Source: Tribonema minus
Taxonomy: Eukaryota; Sar; Xanthophyceae; Tribonematales; Tribonemataceae
NCBI GenBank assembly: GCA_017506865.1
Contig: JAFCMP010000423.1
Location: 857,125-921,124 of the forward strand
DNA length: 64,000 bases
Reading direction: 5' to 3'
Every line of letters begins with the position of its first letter. Position 1 is the first letter of the stretch. The translations under genes were made by a program, and so were the position numbers. This document shows positions 32,104 to 64,000 of the stretch, piece after piece. Below the pieces are notes generated by a model. It made no database searches. It was given only the letters and a program-made list of their open reading frames with translations, and had not been told where the DNA came from.

Positions 32104-32574
32104 ATGACCGCCATTGTTTTCGCATGCACAATGCACACACTACACAAGTACAGCTTGTCACTGACGAAGCGCATGGGCTTCTTAGCTCGGGTCGTTGACA
32201 CGGCTTTGAGTGAGACATGGCTGCACGCATTTGACGGGTTCTGTGCATGGACACTTGAACGCATGCTGCACCTGCACGGCTGCGCTACCGCGGCAGTCAT
32301 GAAGTCACACCTGCTGGCCGCCTGCACTGCTGGTGACAATGAGGAAGCCAGCAGTGGCAGCGTGCTGGTATTGCCGCGCTTGGGCCCGCCAGAACTCACG
32401 GACATCGCAGTGCCACTGCGGACGTCACGGTTGCCGGAGCGACGAGGCGGTCTGGGCATGCCGCTTTTGGGGCTACTGGCACCAGCCGCATACACGGCCC
32501 AGGCATGCACAACACTGCGGCCTGCAATAATTCATGCCACTGTGGCAGCAGGGGCCTCTGAGGCTCGGCACTGA
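32104..32574 (+). pseudogene. RT C-terminal fragment of element B
   Basis: A 156-codon ORF whose end, RTSRLPERRGGLGMPLLGLLAPAAY, matches the thumb-distal segment of R2/NeSL-type reverse transcriptases; element A has PTRHGGLGI at the equivalent point. The frame is lost near 32555, where the reading continues in the next ORF. This is a remnant, without YxDD. Confidence 0.65.
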
Positions 32575-34090
32575 CGAGCACGGCGCAGTCACCTGGTTCG
32601 CGCAGCACTCATGCGCAATACGCGAGGACCAGGGCCTGCCACCAATCATCGAGGCCGTGCGACGCTCTACGCGAGCGCTGACAGCTGATGGCGGCGAAAA
32701 ATCACGCACAGCTGTGGCCGAGCAGCTCCCAGCATCGTTGCTACGGTGGGCAGCAGATACGACGGCCGCAGCGTCGACGCTCCCCACTGCGGTGCAAGCG
32801 ATCTACGCCGCAACTGCCGTCACGGAGACGGGGACCACTGAGCCAGCCCCACACACCCACGGCATTGTGCCTGGCGCCGAGGCGGCCGCTGCGGCGGCGA
32901 CCGTACCTGGCCCTCAAGCCGCTGCCGCGGCTGCCTCTTCCACGCCCGCTAAAACACAAACTAGCGCGGAAGAAAGCAGCTGCAGCGGCGGGCAGGAGGA
33001 CGACGACGACGACTGGGAGGCCTATGCTGACGAGATCTGCAGGAAGGTAGTGCCCCGCCGCCGGCGCGGTCACTTCACGCACGGACTACAAGCCGGCCTT
33101 TCAAATGTTCTTCGACGTCAATACGAGGACTGCCTGGTGGAGGACCTAGAGGCTGCCTCGGCTGGTGCCGTGGGCAAGCCGACGCAGGCTACACTTATTG
33201 GTGACTCGCGTGACACCAGCCGCCGCCGCCAACAGGCTAGCGCGCGGGTCCTGGCGCAGCTGCGCAGCCAGCGTGCGTCCGGGGCAATGGCGTGGATGAG
33301 CGTGCCACCCGCTGCCAATGACCGCCCGGGTGCGGCGCCCATGTCCAGTATGGCAGCAGCCACGATGATTTTGGTTGCGATCTTTATAGACGGGTGGGGC
33401 ATACAGGGCGAGGTGTGCCCATGGCGGTGCAGTGACGTGAGCCCCACCTCCACGCATGCGATCAGCTGCCCCAGCCAGCACATACGGGGGCACAACGCGA
33501 CACACACTGCCCAAAAGCGGTGCCTACAGCGCATCTTGAGACAGCACCATGTCTCTATTGTCCGCAATGAGGACGCTAGCGTCTTCAAGGTACCGGGGTA
33601 TCGGGCGGACACAGTCATTGACCCAGGGTGTCTGCACTTTAGCAGTGCATACCGTAACAAGGGAATAGTGCTAGACAAAAGTGTGCGCGCGCCCACAGCG
33701 AGCTCGTACCTGACAGGCAAAACAAATGCCTCGAACACGGACGGCTATGCTGCTGGGGTGGGGGAGGACGCGAAGGTCAAGCACCACACCGGCACCTTGA
33801 CGTCATCTTGGGCTTTTGTGCCATTCGTGCAGGAGTCGTACGGACGGCTGGGCAAGCAGACAAGCCTTTTTGTTAAGGAGTTGGCAATGCACTCAGCACT
33901 GTGCTCAGGGGGGGGGAAGGCAGATGTGTTACGCAAGGCCGGGTTAGCTAAGCGTCAGATCCACATTGAGCTGAGCATATTGCTGGCGCGGGAGTTGGCG
34001 GAGCGCGTCATGGCATACACACGTGGAGCGCGAATGCTGGGCTGTGTTGCGGCGCCGGTATCCAAACTCCTAGGGCACAGCGCAGCCTAG
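32534..34090 (+). pseudogene. CCHC + restriction-like endonuclease region of element B
   Basis: A 518-codon ORF. The first ~190 residues are Ala/Pro/acidic linker. Around residues 298-316 lies C-x3-C-x8-H-x3-C (CPWRC...H...C), then the endonuclease-like pattern R-x-D-T-V-I-D followed ~25 residues later by VLDKSV, and an FVPFVQESYGRLGKQ block. These parallel the same features in element A (CKLC...C, RRMD, LMVDVT, LAIGSFGSIGEQ). The endonuclease would nick the target for primed reverse transcription. The copy lacks RT, so it cannot move alone. It ends at TAG 34088-34090. Confidence 0.7.
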
Positions 34091-46534: not shown

Positions 46535-49500
46535 CATGTACTTTTTATTAATTCTCGCTCAGGGCGCGAAAAAGCCCAGATGATTGGCATCTAGCTGTAA
46601 GGAATCTACATATCGTATGACAGTCTGAAAGTGTCGCAACGACAACCACTCAAACGCCGCCGCCGCCAAATGGCATCTCGGGGTCCTCCCCTACGTCCTC
46701 CTCCATGTGCCCCCCCCCCCTGGATTCTGCCATGTGTGTCATGACACGGCCAGAGTACGCCATGTGGAGCGCTGCCGACAGTGCCGAGCGTAAGCGCGCC
46801 AGGGCGATGCCCTTGAGAGCTTTAGGGCGCGCTCCTCCGGGCACTGACATCCTGCTGGCATACTCCGTCGCCACAGCCTCCAGCAGCTTCCGCCCCTGCT
46901 CCCCGATGCTGCCAAATGACCCTATTGCCAATGTGGCAAGTTTGTAGCAATTCTGATCATAATGACCAGAATAGTGGGTAGTCTTGGCGGCCTCTTGGTC
47001 GCGGCAGCATCGCTCGGGGTCTGCTGCAGTCTTCGCCGCCCGCGACGCCACCTGTGCCTCGAAGCAGGTAACGTCCACCATGAGCGGTAGGTGGCGTGTC
47101 GGGTCGTCGTAGCCGGTCACCGGGAAGGCGTCGGCAGGCAGCACGATGTCCATCCTGCGACTCCCCGGCGGCCCGGCGGACCCCAGAAACGGCGTGTAGT
47201 CCTCGTCCACCAGTCCCGTTTTGAGGTATTGCCGCAGGAGGCGCTGCGTGGCCCTCTTGACGCTATTGTGGACAATGGTGTCGTGCGCCTTGACGCGTGG
47301 CGCTTGACACAGCCGTGCATGCAGGGTGCCGCCCGGCGACTTCCCGCACAGCTTGCAGCCTGCCGTCTGCTCCTCTACTCCGATGGCGCGTTTGACGGCC
47401 AGCTGCCAGGATAGGCCATCGAACGAAGCCGTTGTGGAGTACATGGGCTCGTTGAGGAATGCCATGCCGATCGAGTGCATGTGGCGCTGCGACCGGAATC
47501 GAGCAAGTGCTTGCGTGCGTTGCGTGCCCTGCGGCAGCTGTTGCAGGTCTGCCTCCACCTTATCTGCAAGCTCGGTAGCGACGGCATCTGCAAGCGCACT
47601 CTGATTGGGGCGCTTCAGGCTACACTGCAACTGCAGAGCACTGGCGTCAAGTACGCAAGCAGCATCCGCACCAGTGCCACCACCTGCTGTCGGCCGCAGC
47701 GGCGGCTGCTGCGTAGGTGGTTGCTGCTGCAGTGGCGTTAGCGCTGGTGGCAGTATATGTTCCAGCTTGTCACCTGTTGCTGCACGTAGAGATGTGGCAG
47801 CTGTGGCGATCGTCCGCATGAGGGGCAGGCGCGCCACCTCTGCCGCTGCTGCGCCTTGTAGCATTGCTGGTGTGGAACGCGCAGCGCCTGCATTGACGGC
47901 TGCCGCTGCTGCGTGCGCTGGTGCTGCAGCTGTGCCGCCTGCCGTTGCTGCTGCTGCCAGTGGTGTTGCTGCTGCCGCAGGTGTTGGTGCAGCACCTGCC
48001 GCATTGGCCGCTGCCACCGCCATTGCCGCTGTCGCAGCCGGCACGGTTGCGGCGCCGCCTGCCGACGCTGCTCCTGTTGCAGGTGCTGCAGCAGCCCTTA
48101 GGCTAGTAGGGCCTGTAGCAGCTGTATTGCCTATGCCCGCAGCCGCTGCTGTTGATGCTGCAGTTAGTGATGCCGCCGAGGCCACTTGAGGTGCAACATG
48201 TGCTGCCGCTGCTGCAGCAGCCTCTGATGCTGGAGCAGCTGCTGCTGCCGCCGCTGCTGCTGCCGCCGCTGCTGCTGCCGCCGGAGTAGTTGCGCCGTGC
48301 GCCGCCGCTGCTGCTGCTGCCGCTGGTGCCGCCTGTGCTGCCGCCGCGGCCCCTGATCCAGCGGCAGCTGCGTCGTATGTTGCCGGAATGGCTGCGCCAT
48401 AAGCGCGGCCAGCCGCTGATGCAGTTGCCGCTGCCGGAGCGGTCGCGCCTCCACTGGCAACCGCCGCTGCCGCTGTAACAGTTGCCGCTGCTGATGCTGC
48501 TGGTGCTGGTGCTGCTGCCGCTGCTGCCGGTGCCGCTTGTGTTGCCGCATCCTCAGCAGCGTTGTCTGCAGCCGCTTGAGGAGCCGCCTGCTGCAGCACC
48601 CCCGCCCATCCAGAGAGTGCTGGTTGCAGCGCTTGCAACGTGCCCGCCACATACGCAGCATCAGCGATGTCGCAGGCGCTGGTAATGCCAAGGCCGCCAT
48701 GCCGTGTTGGGAGTCGCGCTTGCTGTAAGGCTGGGCCGTGCGCTGCCAGATGGAAGTGGGCCCCACTTTGCTCAAACTGGCGCCAGGTCTGGCCTGGTGG
48801 CTGCAGGCCCATTGAGTGCTCGAGCACCCACTGCGTGACCCGATCCCACTCCTTGGCGGCTGGCGCTGTCTGCGTAGTGGGAATGGTGCGCAGGCAGTAC
48901 GTCATGCGAGGCACCACGCAGTAGCGCAGTAACCTGAACATAGCCCTCGGAGATGTCAGGCGCGCGCATCGCTCTGCAAATCGAGCCCCTGCCCCGCCTG
49001 CACCCGCTTCCCTGCGCAGCCATGCGTCCACAAAGCTGCTGTGGCCCACCGGCACCCCCAGCAGCACAGCTCCACGGTTCTGATTTTCATCCGTATCCCC
49101 CACTAGCTGAACGCCCAGCTGCTGCAGCAGTTGCCGCTCGTGGTCTGTCACCACATGCCCCCTGCCAGGCAGCGCGCGTGACTTGGTGAGGTTTAGCTCC
49201 AGCCCCACCTCCGCAAAGTGTTGTTTGAGCTGCGCCACCGCCTGTATGTCATCCTGAGTCAGCGTGCAAGCGCCTGTTCGGACGTTGGCATCGTCCATGT
49301 AGGCGCCCATCCGCCTCCGCGCGCGCTGCGCAGCCGCCGCCTCATTGAACCGTTTCAAGCACTGAGCAATGGCGCCGCAGAAGAGCATCGGTGCCGCGGG
49401 GTCCCCCTGCTTAAACCCGCGCTGAGACATGATGATGCGCGTGGAGCCGTCAACGTGCTGGAACAGCAGGCGTGGCCGAGTGCGAACGTATGTGCCGATG

Positions 49501-52004
49501 AAGTAGTCGAGGAAGTCCGGCAGCTGTGCTGCTACCCATTCCGCTGCCGCCAGGACGAACACCATGTTGAAGGCATTCTTGAGGTCCAGCATGAACTGCC
49601 AGTGACCGAGCTCATACGCGAGTTTGCCGGCCATGGCCGCTTTCTCCGCTCCTGCTGAGACGGCTACCCCATACTGCCCGTCTGGCTCAAGGAGCTCCGC
49701 CAGGAAGTCTTTGCGGTCTGCCACGTACACCGAAGTGCATAGTCGCTGCAGCACCTCGCCGCAAACGATGGGCCGCTGCTTAGCTGTACCATCTTCCTGT
49801 TGTTCTGCAAGTGGCGTCAGGCGCCCCGCGCCATGCAACTGCCAGAAGGCATCCGGCAGCCGCGCAGCCTCCCGCATAACGGTCTGAAGCCACCGTGTGA
49901 GGACAGCAGCAAACTCATGCCGTCCCCAGCTTGTGCGTAGCGCATCCTGCAGGTGGCTGTAGCGCAGCCCCGATGGGCCTGCTCCACTGTAAGGGCTTGC
50001 TCGCTGGATGAGCTTGGCAACCGTCTCTGGCTCAATTCCCTCCCCCTGTAACAGGCTGAGTTCTGCTGGCATGTCGGCTGCTTTCGCCACAAGCTGATCA
50101 ACCATGCCGGATAGCTCATGGAGTTGTTCCCCTGGCGCAGCGGAGGGGTGTTTGGACTGCATGGCGGCAAAGCAGTCATCATCAGGTATCGCCACCGTTT
50201 TGGGCTGAAGGAAACGCGCTGCCTGCTGTAGCCCCCCCCGTGTGCCCATGCACTGTAGGACGTAGGCGTTGATCGCTGCCTCCGTTTGCTGGCGCGCGCG
50301 CCAGCGCCGGTGCGCACGCGCGTGTGCGAGGAGCGCTGGCACCAACCGGTCAAGCTCACCGCGTGCCAACATTCTGATTCTGTCGGAGCGAGTGATGCCA
50401 GGTGCGCCATCGGTGGAGGTGATGAGTGATGGCATGAGGTGGTGTAGAATCGTGGATCTTTGCAGTCGCTGCACCCGCCCTGCAGAATCTGGCTCCCGCG
50501 CCGCATTGACGAACATCGTCATTGTGTGTGCCAACAGATGTGTTGCTGCGTTCTCCAGTGCAGCTCCCACATAGCGACGATTGCGTGGTCTAGCAAGGCT
50601 TCTAGTTGTCGCGAACTGCAGCTTGCACAGCTCATCGAGGCTGATGCTGTCAAGCACTGCTGCGACTGCGGGGGTTGAGATGGTCCACGTGAAAAGCCCA
50701 CCTGCCCCACCTGCTGCGCCTGCAGGGCCTGGCGCTGCCGCTGCTGTCGCCGCACCTGCCGCTCTGGGACCCCCTCCGCCGCCGCCGCGGCCGCCACGAC
50801 CACAGCCTCGTCCGCCGCTGTCGCTGCTGCGACCGCTGCCACGACCACCGCGGCCGTTTTGAGTTCGCGCGCCACTGCCGCTGTTGCTAGCACCGCCGCT
50901 GCGGCTGCTGGCATCACTGCTGCGGCCGTTGCCAGCGCCGCTGTCCTTAGTACCGGCTGCACTGCCGCCGCCGGCACCGCTGCTGCTGCCGCCTCCGGTT
51001 CTGCTGCCGCTAGTCGCTCTGCTACTGCTGATGTCTGCATCATTGCTGCCGCTGCGAACGCGTCCTCCATTGCCACGTCCGCGCCCTCCACTGCGACCCC
51101 GACCCCCTCGTGTAGCACTGCTGCCCCCGCGTTCCGGCCTCTTTGAGCTGCCGGAGGAGCTGCTGCCACCAGCCTGAGCAGCAGGTGCCTGCTGCGCGTG
51201 CGCTGGTCCCTTTGCGTAGGGGTTGCCGATGGGTGTGCACGCCGGTTGCTGCTGTGGCAGCGACGTGGTAGCTGTTGCCGTCGATGCATCAGGTGCTAGC
51301 GGTGCTGCTGATGCTGTTGTTGACAATGTTGCCGCCACTGCAGCGGGTGAAGTGATAGGCCTGCATTTGCGGCAGTGCTTGCCCGCGCTGGCATCGCTGC
51401 TGTCCACTCTGAATGTCTTGTTGGCATGAAACAGGTTTTTGCACAAGGCACACTCGGTGTAGATGGTTTGCAAGTGCGACGTGCTGAGGTCGGAGCGCTC
51501 CAGGAACGTTGTTGCTGTCCCACTGTGGTGTTTGCGCTGGTGCTTCGCCGCGATGTGGGCGTTTAACCTCTGCTGTAACGAGAGCAGCGACATGCCCTTC
51601 TTCACCACGAGGTCGCATAAGTTGCACTTGTACTCCGGGTCCGCACTGCCTCCACCTCCAGCTTCGTCGTCTAGCATCAGACGTTGCTGTTCCAGACTGT
51701 TATGACCTGTTCTAGAGCGCTTGACTGCACTTTGCCCGCCCGTGTGCTCCCCTTCGCCTGTTTGATCGGAAATTGACCAACCGTCATTCTGTACCCTCTT
51801 GCGTTTGTGCGCTGCGCGTCCGTCTCCAGTTGCTCTGCTGCTGCCACTCGTGCCATCGTCCTGTTGACAAGCGCCATTGCCATCTGCAGCACTGGTGCTA
51901 ATATCCTGCGCTTGTGCGCACGCTAGATCGGATTCCTTGCATTTCTGCGCTGATTCAGAGTTGGCAATACGGGCCTCCCGCCGCCGCCATGATATTCTTT
52001 TCAT
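46535..52004 (-). mobile_element. RLE-type non-LTR retrotransposon (element A)
   Basis: One long ORF plus a ~112-bp 3' UTR that ends GAGCGAGAATTAATAAAAAGTACATG on the minus strand (46537 side). The same 3' end bounds fragments at 15257 and 28612. No LTRs or TIRs. The start of the element upstream of 52004 could not be fixed. A full ORF, with degraded relatives elsewhere in the window, suggests a young copy. Confidence 0.85.
46650..52004 (-). CDS. Non-LTR retrotransposon polyprotein: zinc fingers, RT, endonuclease
   Basis: 1784 aa, starting at ATG 52004. Residues 127-155 form a C2H2 finger (C127-x2-C130-x19-H150-x4-H155). C185/C188 and C211/C214 may form a second site. Residues ~220-460 are Gly/Ser/Arg-rich. 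Reverse transcriptase follows with LDLKNAFN (motif A), GFKQGDPAAPMLF (motif B) and YMDD at 902-905 (motif C). After the RT comes an unusual ~300-residue Ala-rich stretch. The C-terminus has a CCHC-type finger (CKLCGKSPGGTLHARLC) and an endonuclease-like R-R-M-D1619...LMVD1644 pair. N-terminal C2H2 plus C-terminal restriction-like endonuclease is the layout of R2/NeSL-group elements, which nick the target and prime cDNA synthesis there. The ORF is uninterrupted, so it may be active. Confidence 0.88.
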   Translation of the reverse strand: MKRISWRRREARIANSESAQKCKESDLACAQAQDISTSAADGNGACQQDDGTSGSSRATGDGRAAHKRKRVQNDGWSISDQTGEGEHTGGQSAVKRSRTGHNSLEQQRLMLDDEAGGGGSADPEYKCNLCDLVVKKGMSLLSLQQRLNAHIAAKHQRKHHSGTATTFLERSDLSTSHLQTIYTECALCKNLFHANKTFRVDSSDASAGKHCRKCRPITSPAAVAATLSTTASAAPLAPDASTATATTSLPQQQPACTPIGNPYAKGPAHAQQAPAAQAGGSSSSGSSKRPERGGSSATRGGRGRSGGRGRGNGGRVRSGSNDADISSSRATSGSRTGGGSSSGAGGGSAAGTKDSGAGNGRSSDASSRSGGASNSGSGARTQNGRGGRGSGRSSDSGGRGCGRGGRGGGGGGPRAAGAATAAAAPGPAGAAGGAGGLFTWTISTPAVAAVLDSISLDELCKLQFATTRSLARPRNRRYVGAALENAATHLLAHTMTMFVNAAREPDSAGRVQRLQRSTILHHLMPSLITSTDGAPGITRSDRIRMLARGELDRLVPALLAHARAHRRWRARQQTEAAINAYVLQCMGTRGGLQQAARFLQPKTVAIPDDDCFAAMQSKHPSAAPGEQLHELSGMVDQLVAKAADMPAELSLLQGEGIEPETVAKLIQRASPYSGAGPSGLRYSHLQDALRTSWGRHEFAAVLTRWLQTVMREAARLPDAFWQLHGAGRLTPLAEQQEDGTAKQRPIVCGEVLQRLCTSVYVADRKDFLAELLEPDGQYGVAVSAGAEKAAMAGKLAYELGHWQFMLDLKNAFNMVFVLAAAEWVAAQLPDFLDYFIGTYVRTRPRLLFQHVDGSTRIIMSQRGFKQGDPAAPMLFCGAIAQCLKRFNEAAAAQRARRRMGAYMDDANVRTGACTLTQDDIQAVAQLKQHFAEVGLELNLTKSRALPGRGHVVTDHERQLLQQLGVQLVGDTDENQNRGAVLLGVPVGHSSFVDAWLRREAGAGGAGARFAERCARLTSPRAMFRLLRYCVVPRMTYCLRTIPTTQTAPAAKEWDRVTQWVLEHSMGLQPPGQTWRQFEQSGAHFHLAAHGPALQQARLPTRHGGLGITSACDIADAAYVAGTLQALQPALSGWAGVLQQAAPQAAADNAAEDAATQAAPAAAAAAPAPAASAAATVTAAAAVASGGATAPAAATASAAGRAYGAAIPATYDAAAAGSGAAAAAQAAPAAAAAAAAHGATTPAAAAAAAAAAAAAAAAPASEAAAAAAAHVAPQVASAASLTAASTAAAAGIGNTAATGPTSLRAAAAPATGAASAGGAATVPAATAAMAVAAANAAGAAPTPAAAATPLAAAATAGGTAAAPAHAAAAAVNAGAARSTPAMLQGAAAAEVARLPLMRTIATAATSLRAATGDKLEHILPPALTPLQQQPPTQQPPLRPTAGGGTGADAACVLDASALQLQCSLKRPNQSALADAVATELADKVEADLQQLPQGTQRTQALARFRSQRHMHSIGMAFLNEPMYSTTASFDGLSWQLAVKRAIGVEEQTAGCKLCGKSPGGTLHARLCQAPRVKAHDTIVHNSVKRATQRLLRQYLKTGLVDEDYTPFLGSAGPPGSRRMDIVLPADAFPVTGYDDPTRHLPLMVDVTCFEAQVASRAAKTAADPERCCRDQEAAKTTHYSGHYDQNCYKLATLAIGSFGSIGEQGRKLLEAVATEYASRMSVPGGARPKALKGIALARLRSALSAALHMAYSGRVMTHMAESRGGGHMEEDVGEDPEMPFGGGGV

Positions 52005-54196
52005 GAACTCTGCTACGCCATGGTGCTACATGCTACAGCTACATACCTATCCGCATCTCGTGGAGGCCTACTACGGTACTTTTATGGGGAGGTACGGTAC
52101 TATGTACTACAGTATGTACACAAACGCCAATGCCAACAGCAGACAGACACCGGAAGTCATGATGCATCAGTGCACAAAGGTCATCTGCTGAGTCCATGTG
52201 CATTCAACTTTGTTAACTCAGCGTGAACGCAGCTGTGAAGCTTGCGAAGGCGGGGCGTCAGTGTGCGACAGTTATCAAGCTGCATTGGCGGCCCAAAGGC
52301 CTTGTACCGGTCTCTCCTACTGTGGTGACTGGGTGGTGTCCCAGCTCACAGTGTTGACTCTTCAGGAGTGAGGAACTGCTCCATTGCTCCAGTTACAGCC
52401 TAAAGCCTGCGAATGTTGCCTTGAGAAAGCAGCGGCGCTTGCAACTACTCTCTCCAGATACCAAGTGCCATGGCGCCGGTAAACGTGGCGGTGCAAAAGC
52501 AGACAAAAGCCTTCCTTAAAGCATGTAGATCGGTTTCTGATCATTAGGCGCACACAAGCACAAATGCAGCTGAGCGCTGCTGCCATTCAACTTGAGGTGA
52601 CTGTTGACAAATACGGGCACAACTCTCCAATTCAGCCCTGGCCACCTCAAGGCGTGCTACGTGCTGCCACCACACATCTATCATCCTAATGCACGCTAAT
52701 GGCGGCCGCTTCACGACATACGCCCCCATCCATGACGTCATCGACCGTCTGGATCAAATAACAGTGAAGCGTGCAAGGAGCTACTGCAAGCCCGGCCTAC
52801 CGCAAATAAGCAATGCAAATCCTCAGCAGATACAGCACGCCTGGCACCACTTTACTGCGCGCCAAGTGTTGTCGATGCGATTGCAACACCTGATTGCGCA
52901 TCACAAGCAGATACTACCCCTCTAGGCGGCGGCTGCGGCTACACGGTGGCGGCGACACCGGCAGCGGCAGAGCAGCACCATATGTTGACGTCATGGTACT
53001 GAAATAACAGAGGGGAGTACTGCCAGTGTGTGGCTATATGCCTCTAATGCTGCACCCGTCAAAGAGGCTGCACCACTTACATACGCCCCGGTAATTGCCT
53101 ACACTAGCAAACAAACGCACAACTTGCGATGCAAACCAGCACTCCACACTACTGCGCCCCCGCTTGAGGCACTCACGCAACCCCCACACTACTGTGCTCC
53201 CGCTTGAGGCACTCGCGCAACCCCCCACTACACCCCGTGTCATGCACGCCCTGTTATAGGGATATAACCCCTCCCCAACCCCTAAAAAGTCACCATAACG
53301 TAGGCGGTGCCTTAAGGTGCGCGCTGGTAGACGCGACTATGCACCTGCTGGAGAAAACGATACACCTGGCGCCTACTCTCCCCGCGTTTCCTTGAACGTT
53401 ACAGGAAAGAGGCTGGAAGTTCGGCTGCGGTCAGTCTCATGGCATACGGCCCGAGTTCCCGCGCGCTACCAACCAGGCTGACGACCCATCCCCCCATGAC
53501 GCCCCCCCCCCCAGTCGGCGGCTACGATGGCCACGTCCCCTGTTCCAAGCCGTAGCAGTGCTCAGCAACGTGAGGAGCACCGCACACTCCGCGCGGCGCA
53601 GCAGCTCGCATGCGCGCCCGTCCTGACTCCCGCAGTACGCCCCCAAGCGCTTGGCACTGCTCAGCAACTTGCTTTGCACGACGTAGCTAGGCCATACTAT
53701 GCAACGCTAGTCCGCCCAGGCCCGTTAAGTTGACAGCGCTCAGCAGCTCGCATGAGTGCGTCCCAAATAGCTTAATCCCCAATCCGCCTCCGGGCCTGGG
53801 GCAGCGCTCAGCGACTGATTGAGGCTGCCCTTGCCTTGGCAGTGCTCAGCAACTCGCTGGAGCACGCACTGCGCCGTGTGGTAACTCACTCACACTTGCG
53901 CTAGGCCAATAGCTGAAGTTGAAGCGCCCTTGCTGAAGTTGAGCTGGTGGTTGAAGTTGAAAGGTGCTTCGGCAGCAGCGCTTGAAAATCTCGTCACCGG
54001 TAGATGCGCATGTAGAACGCCCGCCGCTGCGCGCCAAGACGGAGTTGAATATCTCGTCACCGGTAGATGCGCATGTAGAACGCCCGCCGCTGCGCGCCAA
54101 GACTCCGTCTTCACCTCATATGACACTCCTCCTGAAACATGCGGCACGCAAGGCGCGGGGTAGGGAACGCTGCCAAACAACAAGACTTGGATATTT
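52005..54196. other. Region between the two large retroelements
   Basis: It holds a 40-bp tandem repeat (CTACTG(C/T)GC(C/T)CCCGCTTGAGG, 53148-53228) and a looser repeat of (A/G)(C/G)TGCTCAGCAACT at about 53556, 53658, 53735, 53800 and 53842. TTGAAGTTGAA motifs lie at 53913-53962. The right end should include the 3' UTR/LTR of the gypsy-type element, but its second LTR lies outside the window, so I cannot delimit it. Confidence 0.4.
53988..54103. repeat. 53-bp direct repeat, two copies 63 bp apart
   Basis: ATCTCGTCACCGGTAGATGC... to ...GCGCGCCAAGAC occurs at 53988-54040 and 54051-54103, apparently identical. It lies just past the end of the gypsy-type coding region and may be within its LTR. 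Confidence 0.85.
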
Positions 54197-55108
54197 CTAA
54201 TTGACATATACTATGGTATTGCAGAACCGAACCGCTGGTGCTGTTGCAAGGGGCTGCCAGAAACTGCCAGTGCGCTCGCCAAGGAACGGTGACGAATGAT
54301 GCAGTGTATAGATGAGACGTGCCAGATGCTTGTCGCCTTTAGTCGCATGACCTTTATAGCGGTTTGCAAATGAGGGCAGCTGAGCCGTCAACTCATCCGG
54401 CTCTGCTGCATCAATCGGGCATATGAATTCCACCGTGCCATTGGAAGCAATGTGTACCACATAGCCATCACAACTATCATCAGAGCCATCTACCCATGCA
54501 GCCAATGAAACTCTTATGATGTCACCTTTAGCATATGGGCATTTTTCACGTGGTGCTGGTGCTGCAGCCGCTGATGGCCTGTCAGCCGGGTCACGGGGCA
54601 CATGCTGTTGATCACGCGTAGGCAAGTGTACATCTGGTGGAGGCGGCACCGCTACTTCAAGTTGTCGCTCAGTAGCCAGCTTCAGCCTACTACAGTGGAT
54701 GTACTTCAACATGACTTGCCCTGCATGCGTCGCCCGCAAAACATATGTGTCTAGCCCAGGTATTCGCCTTTCTACTACAAATGGACCCAACCAGCGTTCT
54801 GCTTTCAATTTCTTACTCAGCCCCTTACGAACGGGCGGATAGTGTACAAGAACATGATCTCCAGGTTCAAAGCGACGAGCAAACCCTTTCTCCTGCGCTG
54901 CCGCCGCCCGTAGCCTCTCCTCCTGCTCTTGTAGTGACACCTGTACCAGCCTGTGTCCTTCCTTGATGAGCTCATGAATTACGTGCAGGTGCTCAGCTGC
55001 TGACTTCCACCTGCGCGACAGCTCAGGTGCACGAAGATCTCCCAACATTGCCTCGAACGGCAGCAGGGGCTCACGCCCATATAACATTGCGAAACGGTGA
55101 CATGCCAT
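54197..55108 (-). CDS. Integrase C-terminus (GPY/F) plus unknown C-terminal domain
   Basis: A 303-codon frame continuing the integrase: LYGREPLLPFEAML is the usual tail of the catalytic core. A helical segment (residues ~45-75) follows, then a basic SH3-like GPY/F module (GDHVLVHYPPVRKG..., RWLGPFVVERRIPG...YVLR). The last ~110 residues (GDIIRVSLAAWVDGSDDSCDGYVVHI...) form a small domain I do not recognise. It is not a standard chromodomain. The apparent ATG (55108) overlaps the previous frame; the true joint is near 55093 by a single-base shift, so this is not an independent gene. Confidence 0.75.
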   Translation of the reverse strand: MACHRFAMLYGREPLLPFEAMLGDLRAPELSRRWKSAAEHLHVIHELIKEGHRLVQVSLQEQEERLRAAAAQEKGFARRFEPGDHVLVHYPPVRKGLSKKLKAERWLGPFVVERRIPGLDTYVLRATHAGQVMLKYIHCSRLKLATERQLEVAVPPPPDVHLPTRDQQHVPRDPADRPSAAAAPAPREKCPYAKGDIIRVSLAAWVDGSDDSCDGYVVHIASNGTVEFICPIDAAEPDELTAQLPSFANRYKGHATKGDKHLARLIYTLHHSSPFLGERTGSFWQPLATAPAVRFCNTIVYVN

Positions 55109-58100
55109 ACGTCGTGTTTGTGCAAGCTCTGTGGTTGAAAAGAGCCATGGGTAAGACTGAGTCCCAATTCTTCTGATTGTCTTCTACCATCATTGCCAGA
55201 AGGTTGACAAGCGTGCCGTTGGTGCGCTCAGTGAGACCATTGCATGCAGGGTGGTAAGGGGATGTGAAGCGCTGCTCAATGCCCACTAACCTAGTTAGCT
55301 CTTTCATCAGCAACCCCCTGAACTCCTTAGCATTGTCACAGAGGAACATTTGAGGGCACCCGTGCCTTGGTATGATCTCACTGACTATGACACGCGCAAC
55401 AGTGACTGCTGATTTGTCAGGTATCGCAAAGGCCTCCGGCCACCTAGTCAGGTAATCCGTGAAGACCAAAATGAAAGTGTTGCCCCTGGCAGTCTTGGGC
55501 AGCGGTCCCACAATATCGAAGCCTACCAATTGAAACGCATGCTGTAGATCTACATCTCCAAATCCATGCACACGCACACGCATATCGCGCTTGGACTTGC
55601 GCTTTTGGCATGCCAGGCAAGTCAGCACCCACTTGAAAACATCAGAATACATGCCAGGCCAGAAGTACCTGCGCCTCACTTTGTCATATGTGCGAGCAAA
55701 GCCACTGTGACCTCCACCAATCGCACCATCATGACATTCCTCAAACACGCGCTCTCTTAGTGACTTCGGTACCACTAGCAAGTCTGTGCCTGTCTTGTGG
55801 GACCTGCCACCAGCAGCAAAATGCATTCTCCCATTGCGCATGTAGTAGCCAGCGCGCTCAAATGCGCGAGCATCCTCAACTTCTCTAGGTGAGAGGCCAT
55901 GTGGGGGACCACCTGCTCTTAGACTAGTAGTCAAGTACTTCGCTACTTTCCCCAATACCGCATCCTTGCTCAGCGAAGATACCAAGTCGCCCGCTTCAAA
56001 CACGGCGCGATGTCGTTGCCTATTACCATCTACTTTGCCACCTGTATCCTTGTTGTTGATGTCTTCATGGCCATCCTCCAATTCAGCCTCAAGGTCCATG
56101 TTCTCGTCGCCATCTTCTGGGAACAGCTGAGCCACCCTGCTTGCTGTGATGTTGATTGACACTATCTTCACTCCAGCTGCATCGTCACATTCACAAGCGG
56201 CAGGCAAAACAACAGACGAAAAATTTCCCGGAACAGGTGCTGGCCGCTGTATCCCCCCATGCTGCGAGGTCGTCGCTGCATCATTAGAAAAGGCCACACC
56301 TGCAGACACTGTGACGAAAGTGCCATCCCTGATACGCGAGAGGGCGTCAGCATTACCATTCTCTCTACCAGGCCTGTGCACAATGTCCATGTTGTATTCT
56401 TGCAGTTCTGATATGTAACGTTCCTGCCGCTTGGTGCGCGGTTCTGAGCCACCCATCAAGTGCGCTAATGCAGAGTGGTCAGTTTGTAGGATGAACGTGT
56501 TACCATTGTGCAAAAACTGTCTGAAGTAGTGAACGCCTTCCATTGCTGCTAGCGCTTCCCTATCATAAGTACCATAATTGCGTTCAGCACTTTTCAAAGT
56601 ACGACTATAGTATCCTATCGGGTGCTCTCCGTTGGTGGGGCATATCTGCGTTAACACCGCTCCCAGTCCATAGTCAGAAGCATCAGTCTGCAAAACCAAC
56701 TTGACTGAGCCATTGAGGATGCCTTTCAAATCGGGATGTGCTAAAACAGGGGATGTCTTCAAGGCCTCCTTGAGCACCTGCCACGCAGCAATGCAATCAT
56801 CCGAGAGCTCAAACGGTACACCTTTGCGAGTAAGGTTGACCAGGGGCTCCGTGATTGTTGAAAAATGGGAGATATACTGCCTGTAGTACGCTGCCATACA
56901 CAAAAAGGAACGCACATCATGAAGGTCAGAGGGCAAAGGTATCTTCTCAATTGCCTCTACTTTTGATGGATCAACGCGCTTGCCCTGGGCATCTACGACA
57001 TGACCCAGAAATTTGACCTCCCGCATGGCGAAGTGACACTTGGACGGCTTCAGCTTTATGCCTACTGAGAGCAGTCGGCTCAACACTATCTCCAAGTGCT
57101 TCATGTGCTCTTTGAAGGTTTTGCTAAAAACCAGAATATCGTCAATGTACACCAGGGCGTACACCCACAGCGCATCATGCCCCATAGCAAGCTGCATTAG
57201 ACGCTGAAAAGTAGATGGCATGTTCATAAGCCCCATAGGTCCCACCTTCCATTGATAGCACCCCCATTTGGTTTGAAAAGCCGTTATTGGTCTGGATTCT
57301 CTGTCCAATTCAACATGCCAAAATCCAGCAACCGCGTCCATAGAGCTAAACCACTCAGAGCCATTCAACACTGAGTGCACCTCATCTATGCGCGGCAGCG
57401 GAAACCCATCCTGACCGCCACCACGCTCTTTCACTGCTTGATTAACCGCCCTCAAATCCTGCACAACTCTCATACCACCGTCTGGCTTTGGTATTATCAT
57501 GAGAGGAGAGTTCCAGGGTGAATTTGACGGCTCAATCACGCCCTTCTTCAACAAGAAGTCAATTTCCTTCCATAAAACTTCAAGTTCTTTCAGACTATAC
57601 TTTCGCAATCTGGAACGCACAGGCCTAGCATCTCCAACATCAATATGGTGGCGGACCAACGACACTTTTCCTGGCCTACCATCATGTGAGAAGATCCCCT
57701 TACGTGCCATTTTGCGAAGCAAATCTGTCAACTGCATTCGTTGAACTTCCGTCAAGTGTTCCAATTCCCCAACACGGAACGCGGCAAGCCATTCCAGCTC
57801 CCGTGCCCGTTGCACTGCTTCATCGTCCGTACACTCTTGAGCTGCAGATGAGTCAGCACCAACACCAGGTTGCGATTCTACATCAACCTTCGCTTCCTTT
57901 TTTGGTTTATTGTGAGTTTCAGGGACGGCAGTGCAAGGAGCATTTGGCGGCGGCGGTTCTGCGGGGGGCCGCGCCTTGTGCACTATCTTGTCTGCGTGGG
58001 GCTCCTCTACACTCAATGTTTGCACTCGTGAATCAGAGACTGGGTTTAACTTAGCCGAATTGACTTTGTCTGCCATGCTGCTAGTTGAAGTAGTTGACGT

Positions 58101-60074
58101 TGAAGAAGGGTTCACCTGTGCTCCACACCCCCAACCTACGTCGCAGCTCTCAGCAAACAGAGCCTCCGCTGCCGTTCCCGAAATGACATTTGGCGCCTCC
58201 GCTTGCGCCTCAGCTGGTGTCACATAACCAGCAGCAACCATGAAGCAAACCGTGGCTAGACGATCATTGCGCTCTATCTGTGCTATCCTCGCTTTGATCG
58301 CCGTCAAGCGCTTTTCTAGCAACTGCTGTTTCTCGTCTTTCTCCTGTACTGAAGTCAGTGCTATTGAGCTCCGTGTGGTTTCCACTTCACATCTGTGTGA
58401 TTGTCGCTTCCACAAATCCTCATCTAGCAAGTGCAAGTGCCCAAGCTTGACGCCCGGTTTCAGCTTACCAGTACGCTTGACAATAGTGAGATTTATAGTG
58501 CTGGTGTGCATACCCTCCTCTACCAACACTCGCTGCCGCCGCACAGCCCAATGCCCCCGTGGGTCAATTGCCCCTTCGAGCACATAGTTCCCCGGTGGTG
58601 CGTCACCGGTCCAAGTCACCACAACTGCAATTCCATCCGCTGTAGCTTCTGTGACGGGGTACTTCTTGGCTATATAGACAGTAGCTTGTTTTTGCAAAGC
58701 AGCCCCTTGCTCTGCAACCAACACAATGTTGTCCCATCCTGGTAGTTCTGTTTCGGCGGCAGCGGCCAACTCAGGGTTGTCTGACACTTGATTCTTGCCA
58801 AAGCGCTCATCTGCATGGTCCATCGCTATGGTGTATGCTTCCATCATTGTCAGCTTACCTGGCGTGCGCGCCCCGCCGCTACGATGGCCATCCTCGTCAT
58901 CACCTCCGGCTTCGCCGCTGTCGGTGCTTGTCTCGTCACCTTCGCTCGTGGAGTTGCTGGCTGATGCTTGCGCGCTGGTCTCGCAGGCGGTCTTCTTGGC
59001 GTGGTCTGCTGTGGAGGGCTGCGGCCCTGGCTCCCGGTTGTGGTTCGCCGCCCCCATCGCGAAGCCCTGCTTGTACTTCAACTTGCGCAGGAAAGGCATG
59101 CCTTGCAGGTGTTGTGATACGAGGACAGGCCCCACCGAGGTGCCTCCCTGTGGGTGGTCGTCAGGGAGGTCATAGGGACCCAAGGTCTGCACAAACAAAC
59201 CATCCTCGATCATGCGAGGCGGTATGGGTGCCTGCTGGCGCTGCAAGTCGAACAGCACCGGCTCTGTACGCAGAGTGCGAATGATGAATGACATCACTGG
59301 GGCAAGCAGTATCTGACCACTGCCCTTCGCCAGTGTTGACTGTGTGATGCCTGGTGGCACCTTGAGCCACCACAGACCATTGGCCCGCAGTAAGTCTGCC
59401 TGCGATGGAGCATAGCGTTGAGTGGCATTGTACTGCGTGTCCCCCTTTCGCATGTCACTGTCTGATGGTTCACGGAATGCATGAAAGTGACGCGCAACAA
59501 GGGTTGGTACACTGCGCGTCATCTCATGCGTCCAGCGCGCTGTGGCATTGCGAGGTGGCAGCACAAACACTGGGTTAGTGACACCCCACATCTCCATGGG
59601 GGTGATCTGCAGTTCGTGCTTGTCCTTATGCTTTGCGCGCTCCACCTTGTGAGCCACGCGCTGGAGCGCGTCCACCACACTCTGATCACCCTTCATCATG
59701 AGGAGGAACACTCGGTTGCGCAGGTTAGGGAACCCCAGGTTTTCACCCGAGAGCTCAAATGACAATATGTGATAACCTGCGTTGAGCGCTGCCTCCAACG
59801 CGAGAACTCCACTGACAGTCAGCCCCAGCTCTGGCGCATTTTCAATTAAGAGTCGCTTCACTCCCTTCTGTACAGCCTTGTGCACCAGCTGTGGTGTGGT
59901 GCTTGCGGTCACCAGATCTGGGTCCAGCTCGACTATCTTGTCCCACACTTCATCAGAGGTGTAGTCCCCTATAAGCGTAGGAACCGTGGGGTGAGATGCA
60001 CGAAAAACTTTGGCGAAGTCTTCACTGGTCTCTACTGCCATTGCCACTTGTGCTCCCCCCATTATTGCACCCAT
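55071..60074 (-). CDS. Pol: MTase-like domain, RT, RNase H, integrase core
   Basis: 1667 codons. Residues 1-265 are the C5-MTase-like domain (separate entry). 266-450 are an acidic/Ser-rich linker. 460-555 form a beta-rich module ending in the STINLTIVKR...LKPGVKLGHL pattern commonly found before gypsy RTs. Residues ~760-1010 are the RT (WNSPLMIIPKPDGGMRVVQDLR, FQRLM, YIDD at 977-980). RNase H has D1130, E1173, D1199 and D1243 (NADALSR). The integrase zinc site is H1448-x7-H1456...C1486-x2-C1489, and the catalytic triad D1520, D1580, E1616 has the canonical 35-residue D-E gap. All catalytic residues of RT, RNase H and integrase are present. The ORF starts at an ATG overlapping the previous stop (TAATG on the minus strand), so reinitiation is possible, but domain continuity favours one polyprotein. 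Confidence 0.88.
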   Translation of the reverse strand: MGAIMGGAQVAMAVETSEDFAKVFRASHPTVPTLIGDYTSDEVWDKIVELDPDLVTASTTPQLVHKAVQKGVKRLLIENAPELGLTVSGVLALEAALNAGYHILSFELSGENLGFPNLRNRVFLLMMKGDQSVVDALQRVAHKVERAKHKDKHELQITPMEMWGVTNPVFVLPPRNATARWTHEMTRSVPTLVARHFHAFREPSDSDMRKGDTQYNATQRYAPSQADLLRANGLWWLKVPPGITQSTLAKGSGQILLAPVMSFIIRTLRTEPVLFDLQRQQAPIPPRMIEDGLFVQTLGPYDLPDDHPQGGTSVGPVLVSQHLQGMPFLRKLKYKQGFAMGAANHNREPGPQPSTADHAKKTACETSAQASASNSTSEGDETSTDSGEAGGDDEDGHRSGGARTPGKLTMMEAYTIAMDHADERFGKNQVSDNPELAAAAETELPGWDNIVLVAEQGAALQKQATVYIAKKYPVTEATADGIAVVVTWTGDAPPGNYVLEGAIDPRGHWAVRRQRVLVEEGMHTSTINLTIVKRTGKLKPGVKLGHLHLLDEDLWKRQSHRCEVETTRSSIALTSVQEKDEKQQLLEKRLTAIKARIAQIERNDRLATVCFMVAAGYVTPAEAQAEAPNVISGTAAEALFAESCDVGWGCGAQVNPSSTSTTSTSSMADKVNSAKLNPVSDSRVQTLSVEEPHADKIVHKARPPAEPPPPNAPCTAVPETHNKPKKEAKVDVESQPGVGADSSAAQECTDDEAVQRARELEWLAAFRVGELEHLTEVQRMQLTDLLRKMARKGIFSHDGRPGKVSLVRHHIDVGDARPVRSRLRKYSLKELEVLWKEIDFLLKKGVIEPSNSPWNSPLMIIPKPDGGMRVVQDLRAVNQAVKERGGGQDGFPLPRIDEVHSVLNGSEWFSSMDAVAGFWHVELDRESRPITAFQTKWGCYQWKVGPMGLMNMPSTFQRLMQLAMGHDALWVYALVYIDDILVFSKTFKEHMKHLEIVLSRLLSVGIKLKPSKCHFAMREVKFLGHVVDAQGKRVDPSKVEAIEKIPLPSDLHDVRSFLCMAAYYRQYISHFSTITEPLVNLTRKGVPFELSDDCIAAWQVLKEALKTSPVLAHPDLKGILNGSVKLVLQTDASDYGLGAVLTQICPTNGEHPIGYYSRTLKSAERNYGTYDREALAAMEGVHYFRQFLHNGNTFILQTDHSALAHLMGGSEPRTKRQERYISELQEYNMDIVHRPGRENGNADALSRIRDGTFVTVSAGVAFSNDAATTSQHGGIQRPAPVPGNFSSVVLPAACECDDAAGVKIVSINITASRVAQLFPEDGDENMDLEAELEDGHEDINNKDTGGKVDGNRQRHRAVFEAGDLVSSLSKDAVLGKVAKYLTTSLRAGGPPHGLSPREVEDARAFERAGYYMRNGRMHFAAGGRSHKTGTDLLVVPKSLRERVFEECHDGAIGGGHSGFARTYDKVRRRYFWPGMYSDVFKWVLTCLACQKRKSKRDMRVRVHGFGDVDLQHAFQLVGFDIVGPLPKTARGNTFILVFTDYLTRWPEAFAIPDKSAVTVARVIVSEIIPRHGCPQMFLCDNAKEFRGLLMKELTRLVGIEQRFTSPYHPACNGLTERTNGTLVNLLAMMVEDNQKNWDSVLPMALFNHRACTNTTYGMSPFRNVIWA

Positions 60075-60121
60075 TACGGAGCTGCCAATCCCCCCCCCAG
60101 GTCTACCACCTTTAGGTTAGG
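59280..60121 (-). other. C5-cytosine-methyltransferase-like domain, catalytic motif lost
   Basis: Reading across the G-run gives motif I (VVDLGGGIGSS...), the SAM-binding loop, then an acidic residue in AMAVET (motif II). Numbered from 60074: motif IV is DPDLVTASTTPQLV (51-64), where the family has PCQ. Motif VI is IENAPEL (77-83), motif VIII GYHILSFELS...FPNLRNRVFLL (100-125), motif IX-like RYAPSQADLLRANG (220-233), and motif X-like KGSGQILLAPVMSFI (250-264). The nucleophilic Cys is replaced, and the ~25 residues normally between motifs IV and VI are reduced to about 10. SAM binding may persist; methyl transfer should not. The domain call rests on motif order and spacing read by eye. Confidence 0.78.
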
Positions 60122-63100
60122 TACCAGCATTTGCTCTACGTTTGGGTACTCACCATGTTCAACTGCCGAGATCTGAGACCAGCGATCGACATGGCAATTC
60201 TCCAGCACCCAGTCTGACCCCCCCTTTTTGTTGTAGCAGCCCAAGCGCCTGTTCTCAGTGAGCTCTGAGGCAGCTACACAAATCTCTGTCTCACTGTCTG
60301 AGGGGTAGTCTGCTTCTGAATCAGAAGTCAAGTCTGTGTCATCATCATCACTTTCCGACCAGTCAGTTGCTTGCACATAGTCATCCACCAACTCTGCGCT
60401 GCTTGCATCGGAATCAGAGTACACTGACTCTACTTCAACAGTCTTGTCAGTGCGCCAACACGGACATGACACGTCAGTCTCCCAGCCTGTTTTCGGCAGT
60501 GCTTCCACGCTCACAACACGCTCATCCTGCTCATTGTCAAGGTCAATGGGTGGTTGTACTTGTACTTTCTCCGCACCTACTCCTGTTCCAAGCACAAACT
60601 TTGGCCCCGGCTCTCCATCCTGTGTGAGTGGCGCGTCGAGCAAATCTGCAGGCAGTGCTCCAAACTCAAACTTCAACGTGTCAGGCGCCGACGCTGACCC
60701 GTCAGACCCCCATTGCAAAGCAGTGTGCAGTGCTGTCTGAGGGCCACTACCACCTCCTTTGATGCCCCCAGCGCCTTGGCGCCACGAATCACGCATCGTA
60801 GCTACTTCATCCGGGCTTAGGGACTTGACCCCCTTTGTAGGCATGTCGGGGTGCTGCACTATGGCAGGAGTGCGGCTAGTGAGGATGTCCAAGCGCATCT
60901 TGCTGATTGTAGTGAAGCTGATTAGGAATTGGGGGTCAATTTGGTTGCTGACGTGAAAATCAACTTGTTCCGTGACCCCTGCAACTTCAACTTCAACCGT
61001 GACCATGAACATCACTGCGACCAAGTGCCTGCCCACGCCGCGTATTGCCTTGAAGATTGGTGGTCGCTGCGATTGCTCAAGACGTAGTGCCTGCTGAGCA
61101 GTGTCCGCATTGTCGCGCAGCTTACGCAACAGCAGACAGTATGCGCGGAACTGCATCACGTTGCACCCAGCACATGAGTCCAGGTACACGATGGCGGGCA
61201 TGATTCTGTGGACCGTTGCCTGCACCATGAGCACTGTTGAGCGTGGCCTAGGGCCGTTCACATCGCCAGCACCTGTAATGCAGATCATGCAGCTTACTTC
61301 GGCAATGTCATCACCTGGGCCTAGGCAACAGCACTGAGAGAATTGCTGAGGGTCGCACGTCAGACACACACCTCCAATGGACGGGTCCTGCGCGAAGAAT
61401 GCTCCCGCTGAGAAGGGGTAACAGGCGTCGTCATCGTTGCTAGTGTAGTGCACTGTTGGTGGCAAGGCGGAAGCACCGTACATCATGGCTAGCGCGGCCT
61501 GCATCATCGCGGGAGACACAGAAGCGGGGTCAAACGCAAAGTTGTTTGCAATACGTCCACCGCTGCCGCCATTGCCCATGTAACCGCCACTTGGCCTCTG
61601 CCCCTGGCCACTACCGCTGTTGTTGCCACCAAAGCCTCCGCGACCGTACCCCCCCCCAAAGCCTGACCTGTTGGACTGCGCTTGCCCGTATGGCCCGTAA
61701 AATGGCCGATTGGGCGCCAGAGCAGGTTGTGAGGTGCGTTCATATAGGCGCACCAGTGTATCCAAACGTTGATTGATGTCACTGGCCTGCTGCTGTTGGT
61801 GCATTTCAAGGCGCTGCAAGGCACTTTCCAACGATATACCTGAGCTGTTCGATGGCGTAGGAGTTGTCAACGTGGCGCCGCTGCTGCCCTGAATGGCCAG
61901 AGCATCAGCCCCCATGGCGCCGTCACTACCGTTTCCCGCCTCCGACTCTGATCCTTCCTCAAGCGCAAAAGCGAGAGAGCTCTTCTTGTCTGACTTCTTA
62001 CCTGCCTCATTCGCCAGATATGCTCTCACTGACATGCCCTTGCTTGCTGCCATTACACTCTCTACCGTGTGTAACCGTCTTTTGATAGCCTCTGTTGACA
62101 CCTCACAGGCCTCACCTGCCTCAAGTGTCACACGGAATGCCACCAACTTTTCCATGAACTTCTCTGCTCTGGGTCTGGCCTCACGAGATCTGCCTATGAC
62201 TTCAATGAGCTTGCGCACATATTTGTCCTTGAGAAGCGCTCCGCCGCGTTCCTGCGGATGCAATGTGTACTCCAGGACCTTCTCAAAGTCCAACAGAAAC
62301 ACTTTGACACCTACCCCTGCCTCCAGGCGCAGCTGCTCCAGCCTGCTTGCGGCCCTACTTCTCTGCATAGAGTCACTGTACAGGTCTGTCAATCGTGTAT
62401 GCAGGGCCTTGACCTGCTGTCCAGACAGATTGCTGTTGGCCTGCTTCTCACTGATCCATTTCGTGATTTCCCTTCGCAGCTCAGCAGAGAGGCAATATTG
62501 CAGCATTAGTGGCACGTATGAGGGGCAAGTGCGGTTACTAGAGTTGCCGTCGGGTATTCGTTGGACCCCTTCGAATGACACACGTGCCGCCAGCGAGTTG
62601 AGCCATTCGCTCATCATGCATGTAATCAGCTCATGGTTGACTGCCTTGTTCTCCGCATTCTTGTACTCCAAACCAGTCTCTGGGGGGTCATCCAAGAAGT
62701 ATAGCGTTGCATGTGACACGCCTTTGAGAGCCCGCGGTGCCATCAGGCGAGGAATCACTGCAGATGACTCATCTTCCTCGTCTACACTGCGCACAACTGC
62801 CCTGCTAGAGTGAGACCCAACTTCAACTCTTGTTTCTTGCGCTGACTGTTCCATTGGGACTGCCAGCTGCGACTGCTGCGGCACCTCGGATGGGCGCTGC
62901 TGGTGCCCCTGCTCAACCTGATGCTGTAGCTGCTGTTGCTGCAACATCACCTGCTGTTCAAGACGGTGCAACTGCTGCTGCTGCAACTGCAACTGCTGCT
63001 GCAACTGCAACTCCTGCTGTTGCTCAACTTGACGTTGCTGCAACTGCAGCCGCTGCTGTTCTTCCTCTTCTCGTTGTGACAGCTGCTGCTGCTGCTGCAA

Positions 63101-63180
63101 CAACTGCTGCTGCTGCTGTTCCTCCTGCTGCTGCTGCTGCAACAACTGCTGCTGCTGCTGCAACTGCTGCTGCAACAGCA

Positions 63181-63212
<32 letters not shown>

Positions 63213-63655
63213 AGCAACTGCTGTGCCTCTTCTTGCTGCTGCTGTAACTGGGCCAGATCCGCCCCCCGCGGATTGCCCTCCACGTAGCGAGGCACTGCGG
63301 CACGACCTAACGCATTCTCATGCAAAGTGTGCGGCACAAACCTCCCGGTCACAACATCCACCGGGACCTGAAAGTCCAGAGGTGGTGGAGGAGCATCGAG
63401 CCCCACCATCTGCCCTTTGCTGAGCGGCAGATAGTCAGAGAGCAGTGGGCCTGCATCCTTGCCCCAAATGAGAGGGTTGACTGGTGGGTGCGAAGGCGTC
63501 ACGGGCATAATCCAGTAAGGTGTCGTGCAGTTTGCGACGCGCGAGGCAGGCACATCATACACTACATCCCCAGCCTCCGTCCTGACGCGAAAGAGCGGGT
63601 CGAACACATTGGCCTCATCTACCTCTGTGTTAGTGCTCAAGAAGTCTTGTGCCAT
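60074..63655 (-). CDS. Gag-protease polyprotein with polyglutamine region
   Basis: The open frame reaches 63907, but MAQDFLSTNTEVDEANVFDP at 63655 is the likelier start, because the 84 codons before it are Cys/Arg-rich and unstructured. Numbered from 63907, residues 219-345 are a Gln/Leu-rich run encoded by CAG/CTG repeats. About 440-720 is a helical gag-like domain (ELRREITKWISEKQAN, VFLLDFEKVLEYTL, KFMEKLVAFRVTLE). A Gly/Arg-rich stretch (GGGYGRGGFGGNNSG) could bind RNA. There is no CCHC knuckle, only a Cys cluster (CLTC...CCC...CMIC). The protease-like motif is IVYLDSCAGCNVM, with D910-S-C where DSG/DTG is usual. The frame ends one codon past the MTase motif I start (VVDLGGG) owing to the G-run. 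Confidence 0.8.
62870..63240. repeat. CTG/CAG trinucleotide-rich tract
   Basis: Interrupted CTG/CAA triplets encode the gag polyglutamine region on the minus strand. The pure run CTG-CTG... spans about 63182-63213. Antisense ORFs here are shadows. Confidence 0.85.
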
Positions 63656-64000
63656 CCTACAATCCTCCCACTGAGTGGTGATCTTGCAGCGTACCGGGCG
63701 TTGACAGGCATGATGCAAGGGGTTAGTCGATGAGCCGCCACTTGACAGACCTCTGCACTCACAACTTTCCTGACCACAACATAATCCATCAGCGCGTGAG
63801 CCCTGCTGAAGCGGCCATCGGCTGGCACCAGGCTGGCGCCACCTGCACCAGATGCACCTTATCCAACTTGCCTGCCTTGCCTTTAACAGTTGGTGCATGC
63901 ATGTCATGCCATAATGCCAATTCGTAACCCGAGGGTCGCCAAACTGAGTAGTTCTTCTCCGCTCCCTCCAGCAGCTTTACTTCCCACTCCTCACCCAGCG
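63656..64000 (-). other. Leader region of the gypsy-type element
   Basis: Upstream of gag. TGGTGCAGGTGGCGCC and TGGTGCCAGCC occur on the minus strand near 63822-63850 and begin with TGG, as primer-binding sites do. Without an LTR boundary or a matching tRNA I cannot call one. The 5' LTR is expected beyond 64000. Confidence 0.35.

Follow-up and report, generated by a model that had tools for sequence, protein, structure and literature searches.

A C5-methyltransferase-derived domain without its catalytic loop in a recently amplified Ty3/gypsy retrotransposon family of Tribonema minus

What is a segment resembling a C5-cytosine DNA methyltransferase (MTase) doing inside the polyprotein of a Ty3/gypsy retrotransposon, and is it still equipped to transfer methyl groups? 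The question is raised by a stretch of 64,000 nucleotides (the window), whose minus strand encodes such a polyprotein in two frames, ORF A (63976-60077) and ORF B (60116-55074), in the order protease-like region, MTase-like domain, reverse transcriptase (RT), RNase H, and integrase. In ORF B, Pfam places RT and RNase H (56304..57725, minus strand; RVT_1, 1e-33; RT_RNaseH, 1.5e-29) ahead of the integrase (55074..56303, minus strand; H2C2 zinc finger, Integrase_H2C2, 1.5e-23; core, rve, 8.9e-11), which is the order found in Ty3/gypsy long terminal repeat (LTR) retrotransposons. The part of the MTase-like domain that lies in the ORF B frame occupies 59259..60098 (minus strand), and the spacer between the domain and RT (57726..59042, minus strand) is conserved in sister elements and has no Pfam match. 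ORF A, open from stop to stop (60077..63976, minus strand), contributes gag-like and protease-like regions and the first half of MTase motif I. Neither the gag-like nor the protease-like region has any Pfam match, and both were assigned from their position and from conservation in sister elements. The protease-like region is a possible assignment with two bases, its position and the sequence DSCAG (61166..61180, minus strand), a possible active site picked out by eye and conserved in an uninterrupted copy of the window family (L009) and in two sister elements (L010 and L012).

Downstream of the polyprotein lies a probable 3′ LTR of 1,547 bases (52321..53867, minus strand), the 5′ LTR being outside the window. 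Of 49 genome matches to this segment, 27 have 52321 as their exact starting point and another 13 start no more than 10 bases from it, and because 5 of the 49 (97% identity) are stand-alone units sharing exactly both ends, 52321-53867 is probably an LTR. LTR-like copies also occur elsewhere in the same genome as pairs in opposite orientation, their 3′ ends tail to tail with 1 to 40 bases between them (C513:222086-224814, C374:1-2426, C415:12026-15068, and C76:29641-32627); a tendency toward palindromic insertion or an effect of assembly may account for them. ORF B is 1,681 amino acids long in the window copy and 1,972 in other copies with the same frame at the G-run inside motif I, which indicates a further break in the window copy after the integrase, near 55071 (minus strand). 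Within ORF A and upstream of the gag-like region, a CAG-rich repeat (62864-63250) codes for a long stretch rich in glutamine. A second retroelement (46650-52025, minus strand), non-LTR by its look and with a 1,791-amino-acid open frame (RVT_1, 2.1e-10), lies about 300 bases past the point at which the probable LTR of the gypsy element ends, and the plus strand carries a 519-amino-acid open frame (32531-34090) with no Pfam match.

A sequence-only reading of the window had proposed that a C5-MTase-like domain sits between protease and RT, citing motif I (DLGGGIGSS), the motif II acid, motif VI (IEN), motif VIII, and IX/X-like ends. Profile homology and the Pfam order bear out the domain and its position, and its strand, its place, and the first four motifs are as that reading described them; the IX/X-like ends are weak, and motif IV, which was not on its list, is absent (59897/59898). 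Motif I, like the others a minus-strand feature, is split in the window over a run of G residues: VVDLGG (60092..60109), its first half, is in the ORF A frame and GIGSS, its second, in the ORF B frame. In L009, DLGGGIGSS is unbroken, and the SAM motif I and the motif II acid are both present. The motif II acid (AVE) is at 60030..60038, motif VI (IEN) at 59838..59846, and motif VIII (NLRNRVF, containing RxR) at 59706..59726. The Glu and Asn of motif VI and both Arg residues of motif VIII are invariant across 13 aligned domains.

Searched against the C5-methylase profile PF00145, as the earlier reading had proposed, the ORF B piece of the window alone scored 15.6 bits (E = 0.011), below the curated cut-off of 22, and phmmer matched it to DNMT2 in the Protein Data Bank (PDB) at E = 0.06. 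L009 reached 21.4 bits (1.9e-4), just below the cut-off, and the sisters L010 (36.3 bits, 5.5e-9) and L012 (49.4 bits, 5.8e-13) were above it. A six-row profile of the window, L009, and four sisters matched DNMT2 structures at 2.4e-5 and 3.6e-5, and hhalign of the window and its sisters against nine C5-MTases of the same genome gave a probability of 99.4 and an E value of 3.8e-21 over 227 columns. More distant elements (L014-L017) match the L009 domain at 22-25% identity (best E, 2.9e-19); all four carry the C5-MTase signature GPPCT, ENV, and RRRLF, L014 and L017 also have ADLCAGIGG, and the elements themselves are interrupted by stops. The window piece is thus weak on its own, and it is the relatives in the genome that make homology firm; judged from these comparisons, the domain is almost certainly homologous to C5-cytosine DNA methyltransferases. 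A LysM-like match late in the domain (4uz2, E = 0.021) was set aside as chance, its E value being 0.24 and 0.084 when profiles were used.

The sister elements have a 25-residue catalytic loop, motif IV, and at the corresponding junction in the window (59897..59898, minus strand) it is absent, DPDLVTAST running straight into TPQLVHKAV. The sisters have DPDLVTASTRCE or DPDMVLVSTRCE ahead of the next helix and then continue into the loop, and relative to L010 the 25 residues are missing in frame. We take this site to be the one at which C5-MTases carry their Pro-Cys nucleophile. The loop is missing from L001-L009 (L005 being the window itself), and all 27 full-length copies at 98% identity or more among the matches listed align without a gap across the site, so that the window family has no motif IV Pro-Cys nucleophile such as marks an active C5-MTase. 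The sisters keep the Cys and have Arg in place of the Pro at all six loci that show the stretch (L010-L013, L022, and L024), and other relatives in the same genome, with the domain in the same place ahead of RT, have a whole motif IV (GGPPCT, SPPCT, or GPPCT). The tree unites the window family with its sisters at firm support (100/100), and this clade joins the L014/L017 type (83/88; 98/93 in a second tree). We would read the states as running from catalytic-looking through STRC to loop loss, a polarity that we infer. The idea that the element carries a working MTase module is thus not supported for the window family, from which the catalytic loop is missing, and by this reading of motif IV methyl transfer has very probably been lost.

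The frame break itself, at a G-run inside motif I (60090..60098, minus strand), is real in the window copy, as had been noted, and is shared by other copies: 16 of the 27 full-length copies match the window frame on both sides of the G-run, and 11 match it only after the run, 4 of these in open frames of 3,452-3,455 amino acids. At the G-run, seven other copies of the first type (L001-L004 and L006-L008) have the sequence of the window and L009 does not; L009 and the open frames show that uninterrupted copies exist. The difference among copies may be real variation or homopolymer misreading.

The search for sister copies that the earlier reading had called for covered the source genome of the window (158 Mb, 554 contigs) and listed 131 matches. 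Twenty-seven were full-length copies at 98-100%, and 29 longer matches at 62-68% were treated as sister families, with partial, split, and distant rows left out of the count. Light-harvesting complex (LHC) fragments of this genome matched chains of red-lineage type best, and its PsbO had 8iwh, a diatom chain, as top match (5.3e-108); after these comparisons a green-alga host was rejected in favor of a photosynthetic eukaryote that probably has a red-lineage plastid. Copies of the window family are ~99.5-99.9% alike in DNA, which indicates that the loop-less copies were amplified recently. In an older copy, C544, the domain contains one stop and is 98% identical at the protein level, and the probable LTR of that copy is at 95-96%.

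How the domain has evolved was compared among L009, L010, and L012. Over 314 aligned columns of the MTase domain, these have 20, 40, and 44 changes of their own, respectively, and pairwise dN/dS is 0.15-0.21, with dS saturated at 1.4-1.7. Own changes in the same order number 18, 24, and 62 in gag, 11, 15, and 36 in the protease-like region, 28, 36, and 73 in the spacer, and 15, 16, and 24 in RT-RNase H. L009 has the fewest in each domain measured, and its MTase domain appears slow partly because L009 is a short branch overall. Divergence of the MTase domain between families (31-39%) is far above that of RT-RNase H (7-9%) and close to that of the protease-like region (29-42%); the spacer differs by 38-50% and gag by 39-58%. 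Relative to its sisters, the loop-less lineage has undergone no burst or acceleration of change, but the loss itself cannot be dated on the branch. We consider the evidence that a function of the domain has been kept, as read from these substitution patterns, to be moderate.

The window family is one part of a wider set. Of 378 candidates in the genome, at least 123 scored as PF00145 matches, all over the cut-off; neither the window family nor either of its two near sisters is readily recognized among them. Eighty-eight of the 123 lie in open frames of at least 1,000 amino acids and 48 in frames of at least 2,000. RT follows within 4.5 kb on the same strand in at least 38 of the 123, 24 of these having the RT in a frame of the same length, and among the RT places listed none was upstream on the same strand or on the other strand of any of the 123; the places compared were the best-scored 150 of 1,416 RT candidates plus 88 from another listing, which makes the count a lower bound. 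RT lies downstream in 26 of 27 window-family copies and 25 of 29 sisters. The domain occupies two places in these polyproteins. In the window family and its sisters it comes after the protease-like region, as it does, judged by eye, in L034 and L042, neither of which has a Pfam protease match; in L043 and L053, from families with a whole motif IV, it precedes the protease, the retroviral-type aspartyl protease after it matching Pfam at 1.3e-5 and 0.0045, both below curated cut-offs. Not all 123 are in elements, since L028, which is a DNMT2-like gene, is among them, as are the three short genes L025-L027. The latter, open frames of 367-390 amino acids, are strong bacterial-type C5-MTase matches (best PF00145 E value, 1.7e-35; TIGR00675, 3.3e-31 for L025 and 9.6e-24 for L026) with no RT nearby among the RT places listed, and could be either host genes or part of another mobile element.

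What kind of MTase was taken up? A profile of 13 element domains matched DNMT2 best in the PDB (9hgm, 1.5e-25), followed by M.HhaI (2.2e-21) and DNMT1 (6e-18), and none of the 55 PDB matches at E ≤ 1e-3 was a chain named DNMT3; on these profile matches, the element domains are not Dnmt3-like. The best match, DNMT2, is a tRNA C38 methyltransferase, a likeness that does not identify it as the source. The proposed tree combined 11 element domains with 16 MTases of prokaryotes and phages, selected among 147 loci. It grouped the 11 together at 85/86, below firm support and adjoining seven prokaryotic or phage MTases; they were nearer to prokaryotic and phage MTases than to the DNMT2-like L028 of the same genome, which is a long branch of unsure placement. 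Two queries found no close viral relatives, and the canonical element MTases matched only distant prokaryote and phage MTases at 19-36% identity (67 loci in one search and the best 80 of 133 in another), so that these comparisons revealed no recent donor. A single, old uptake of an MTase not of DNMT3 type would be the simplest reading of the trees and profiles, not a firmly supported one, and the two positions in the polyprotein would also allow for several uptakes.

Retrotransposon-borne DNMTs have been described before, and the 2018 work of de Mendoza named in the sequence-only reading is indeed prior art for the general phenomenon (PMC5890265). According to the available text of that paper, DNMTs occur in LINE and DIRS elements of Symbiodinium and DNMT3 in the Pol of Klebsormidium Gypsy elements, their key residues being conserved; in yeast, SymbioDIRS-Dnmt3 methylated CG, whereas the results for SymbioLINE-Dnmt and KnitGypsy-Dnmt3 were inconclusive, and such enzymes are discussed as self-methylation tools (PMC5890265). 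The nearest parallel, KnitGypsy-Dnmt3 of Klebsormidium nitens, known to us from its description there, is likewise a C5-MTase in the Pol polyprotein of an algal LTR Gypsy element with several copies, but it is of DNMT3 type with conserved key residues, whereas the domain of the window family is not DNMT3-like and lacks the loop (PMC5890265). The suggestion of an independent capture therefore stands in part: separateness from the Klebsormidium event is likely, given a non-DNMT3 domain here and a DNMT3-type one there (PMC5890265). SymbioDIRS-Dnmt3 and SymbioLINE-Dnmt also are high-copy retrotransposon-borne C5-MTases of one algal genome but differ in element class (DIRS and LINE), in their conserved key residues, and, for the DIRS ones, in methylating CG (PMC5890265). 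Retrotransposons with adenine or cytosine methylases are also reported, in the accessible text of PMC6338049, from stramenopiles and green algae, which makes a new host group alone a weak claim. The available parts of PMC12344493, PMC9998398, PMC12477816, and PMC3145265 describe no inactive or loop-less DNMT in a retrotransposon, and none was found in the openly accessible literature searched. A retrotransposon-borne C5-MTase is thus prior art, of which the loop-less, recently amplified family would, from its sequence, be a variant.

We lean toward the view that the window domain is a C5-MTase taken up long ago by a Ty3/gypsy lineage and is now a transposon-borne pseudo-methyltransferase. The window family would have lost the catalytic loop with its nucleophilic cysteine, leaving a domain predicted still to fold and to bind SAM, and probably DNA, without being able to form a bond to cytosine. 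What we count in favor is a loop-less family that has kept the SAM motif, the motif VI Glu, and the motif VIII RxR, shows no speed-up, and has recent copies, and also the higher protein identity of the C544 domain (98%) compared with the probable LTR (95-96%). Against it we count the stop in the C544 domain, the greater divergence of the MTase domain (31-39%) compared with RT/RNase H (7-9%), and the small number of lineages. That the domain belongs to another Rossmann-fold family has almost nothing to recommend it. L012 has weak side matches to FtsJ (8.2e-4), Methyltransf_25 (0.002), and TrkA_N (0.016), but PF00145 ranks first for it (5.8e-13) and for all 10 proteins scanned, the alignment spans motifs VI and VIII, and intermediates with a whole motif IV exist; a better match to such a family, which the earlier reading had named as grounds for giving up its proposal, was looked for and not found, and we rejected it. 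Nor is the domain at all likely to be a working methyltransferase with which the element modifies host DNA or its own cDNA. A whole motif IV (GGPPCT, SPPCT, or GPPCT) does occur in relatives from this genome, and DIRS-type retrotransposon DNMTs methylate CG in yeast, as described in the available text of PMC5890265, but the motif IV Cys is missing from the window family.

The main and close rival, nearly as likely as a pseudo-methyltransferase, is that the domain is a passenger in decay, having lost its loop and with it any present function, and persists in frame within a polyprotein that needs to stay open. We give this reading somewhat less than an even chance. The path from sisters without the motif IV Pro to a family without the loop has the look of stepwise decay, and the frame break at the G-run occurs in 16 of 27 copies, which have nonetheless reached high copy number, although homopolymer misreading may contribute. 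On the other hand, there is no speed-up after the loss and dN/dS is low, motifs I, VI, and VIII are kept, and 11 of 27 copies are without the frame break, 4 of them in the open frames of 3,452-3,455 amino acids. On the sequence evidence, a kept, non-catalytic role of the window domain thus seems to us slightly the better prospect.

If the pseudo-methyltransferase reading is right, the domain may act without catalysis, for example by holding the cDNA of the element or its target DNA. Alternatively, it might partner or compete with catalytic MTases encoded by the host or by related elements. Mammals offer a precedent in DNMT3L, a host gene product of DNMT3 type that is related to C5-MTases, lacks catalysis, and works through partners; its likeness to the window domain is one of logic alone. 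By this analogy, a SAM- and DNA-binding module evolved in a retrotransposon could steer or block methylation by the catalytic MTases of the host or of rival elements, thereby shielding new copies, a scenario that we regard as rather unlikely. With a loop-less family beside relatives that have a whole motif IV, this one genome would provide a natural contrast in which any role of the domain other than methyl transfer could be studied, and since the domain occurs in two places in the polyprotein and in many copies, its uptake, shuffling, and loss may be traceable within a single species.
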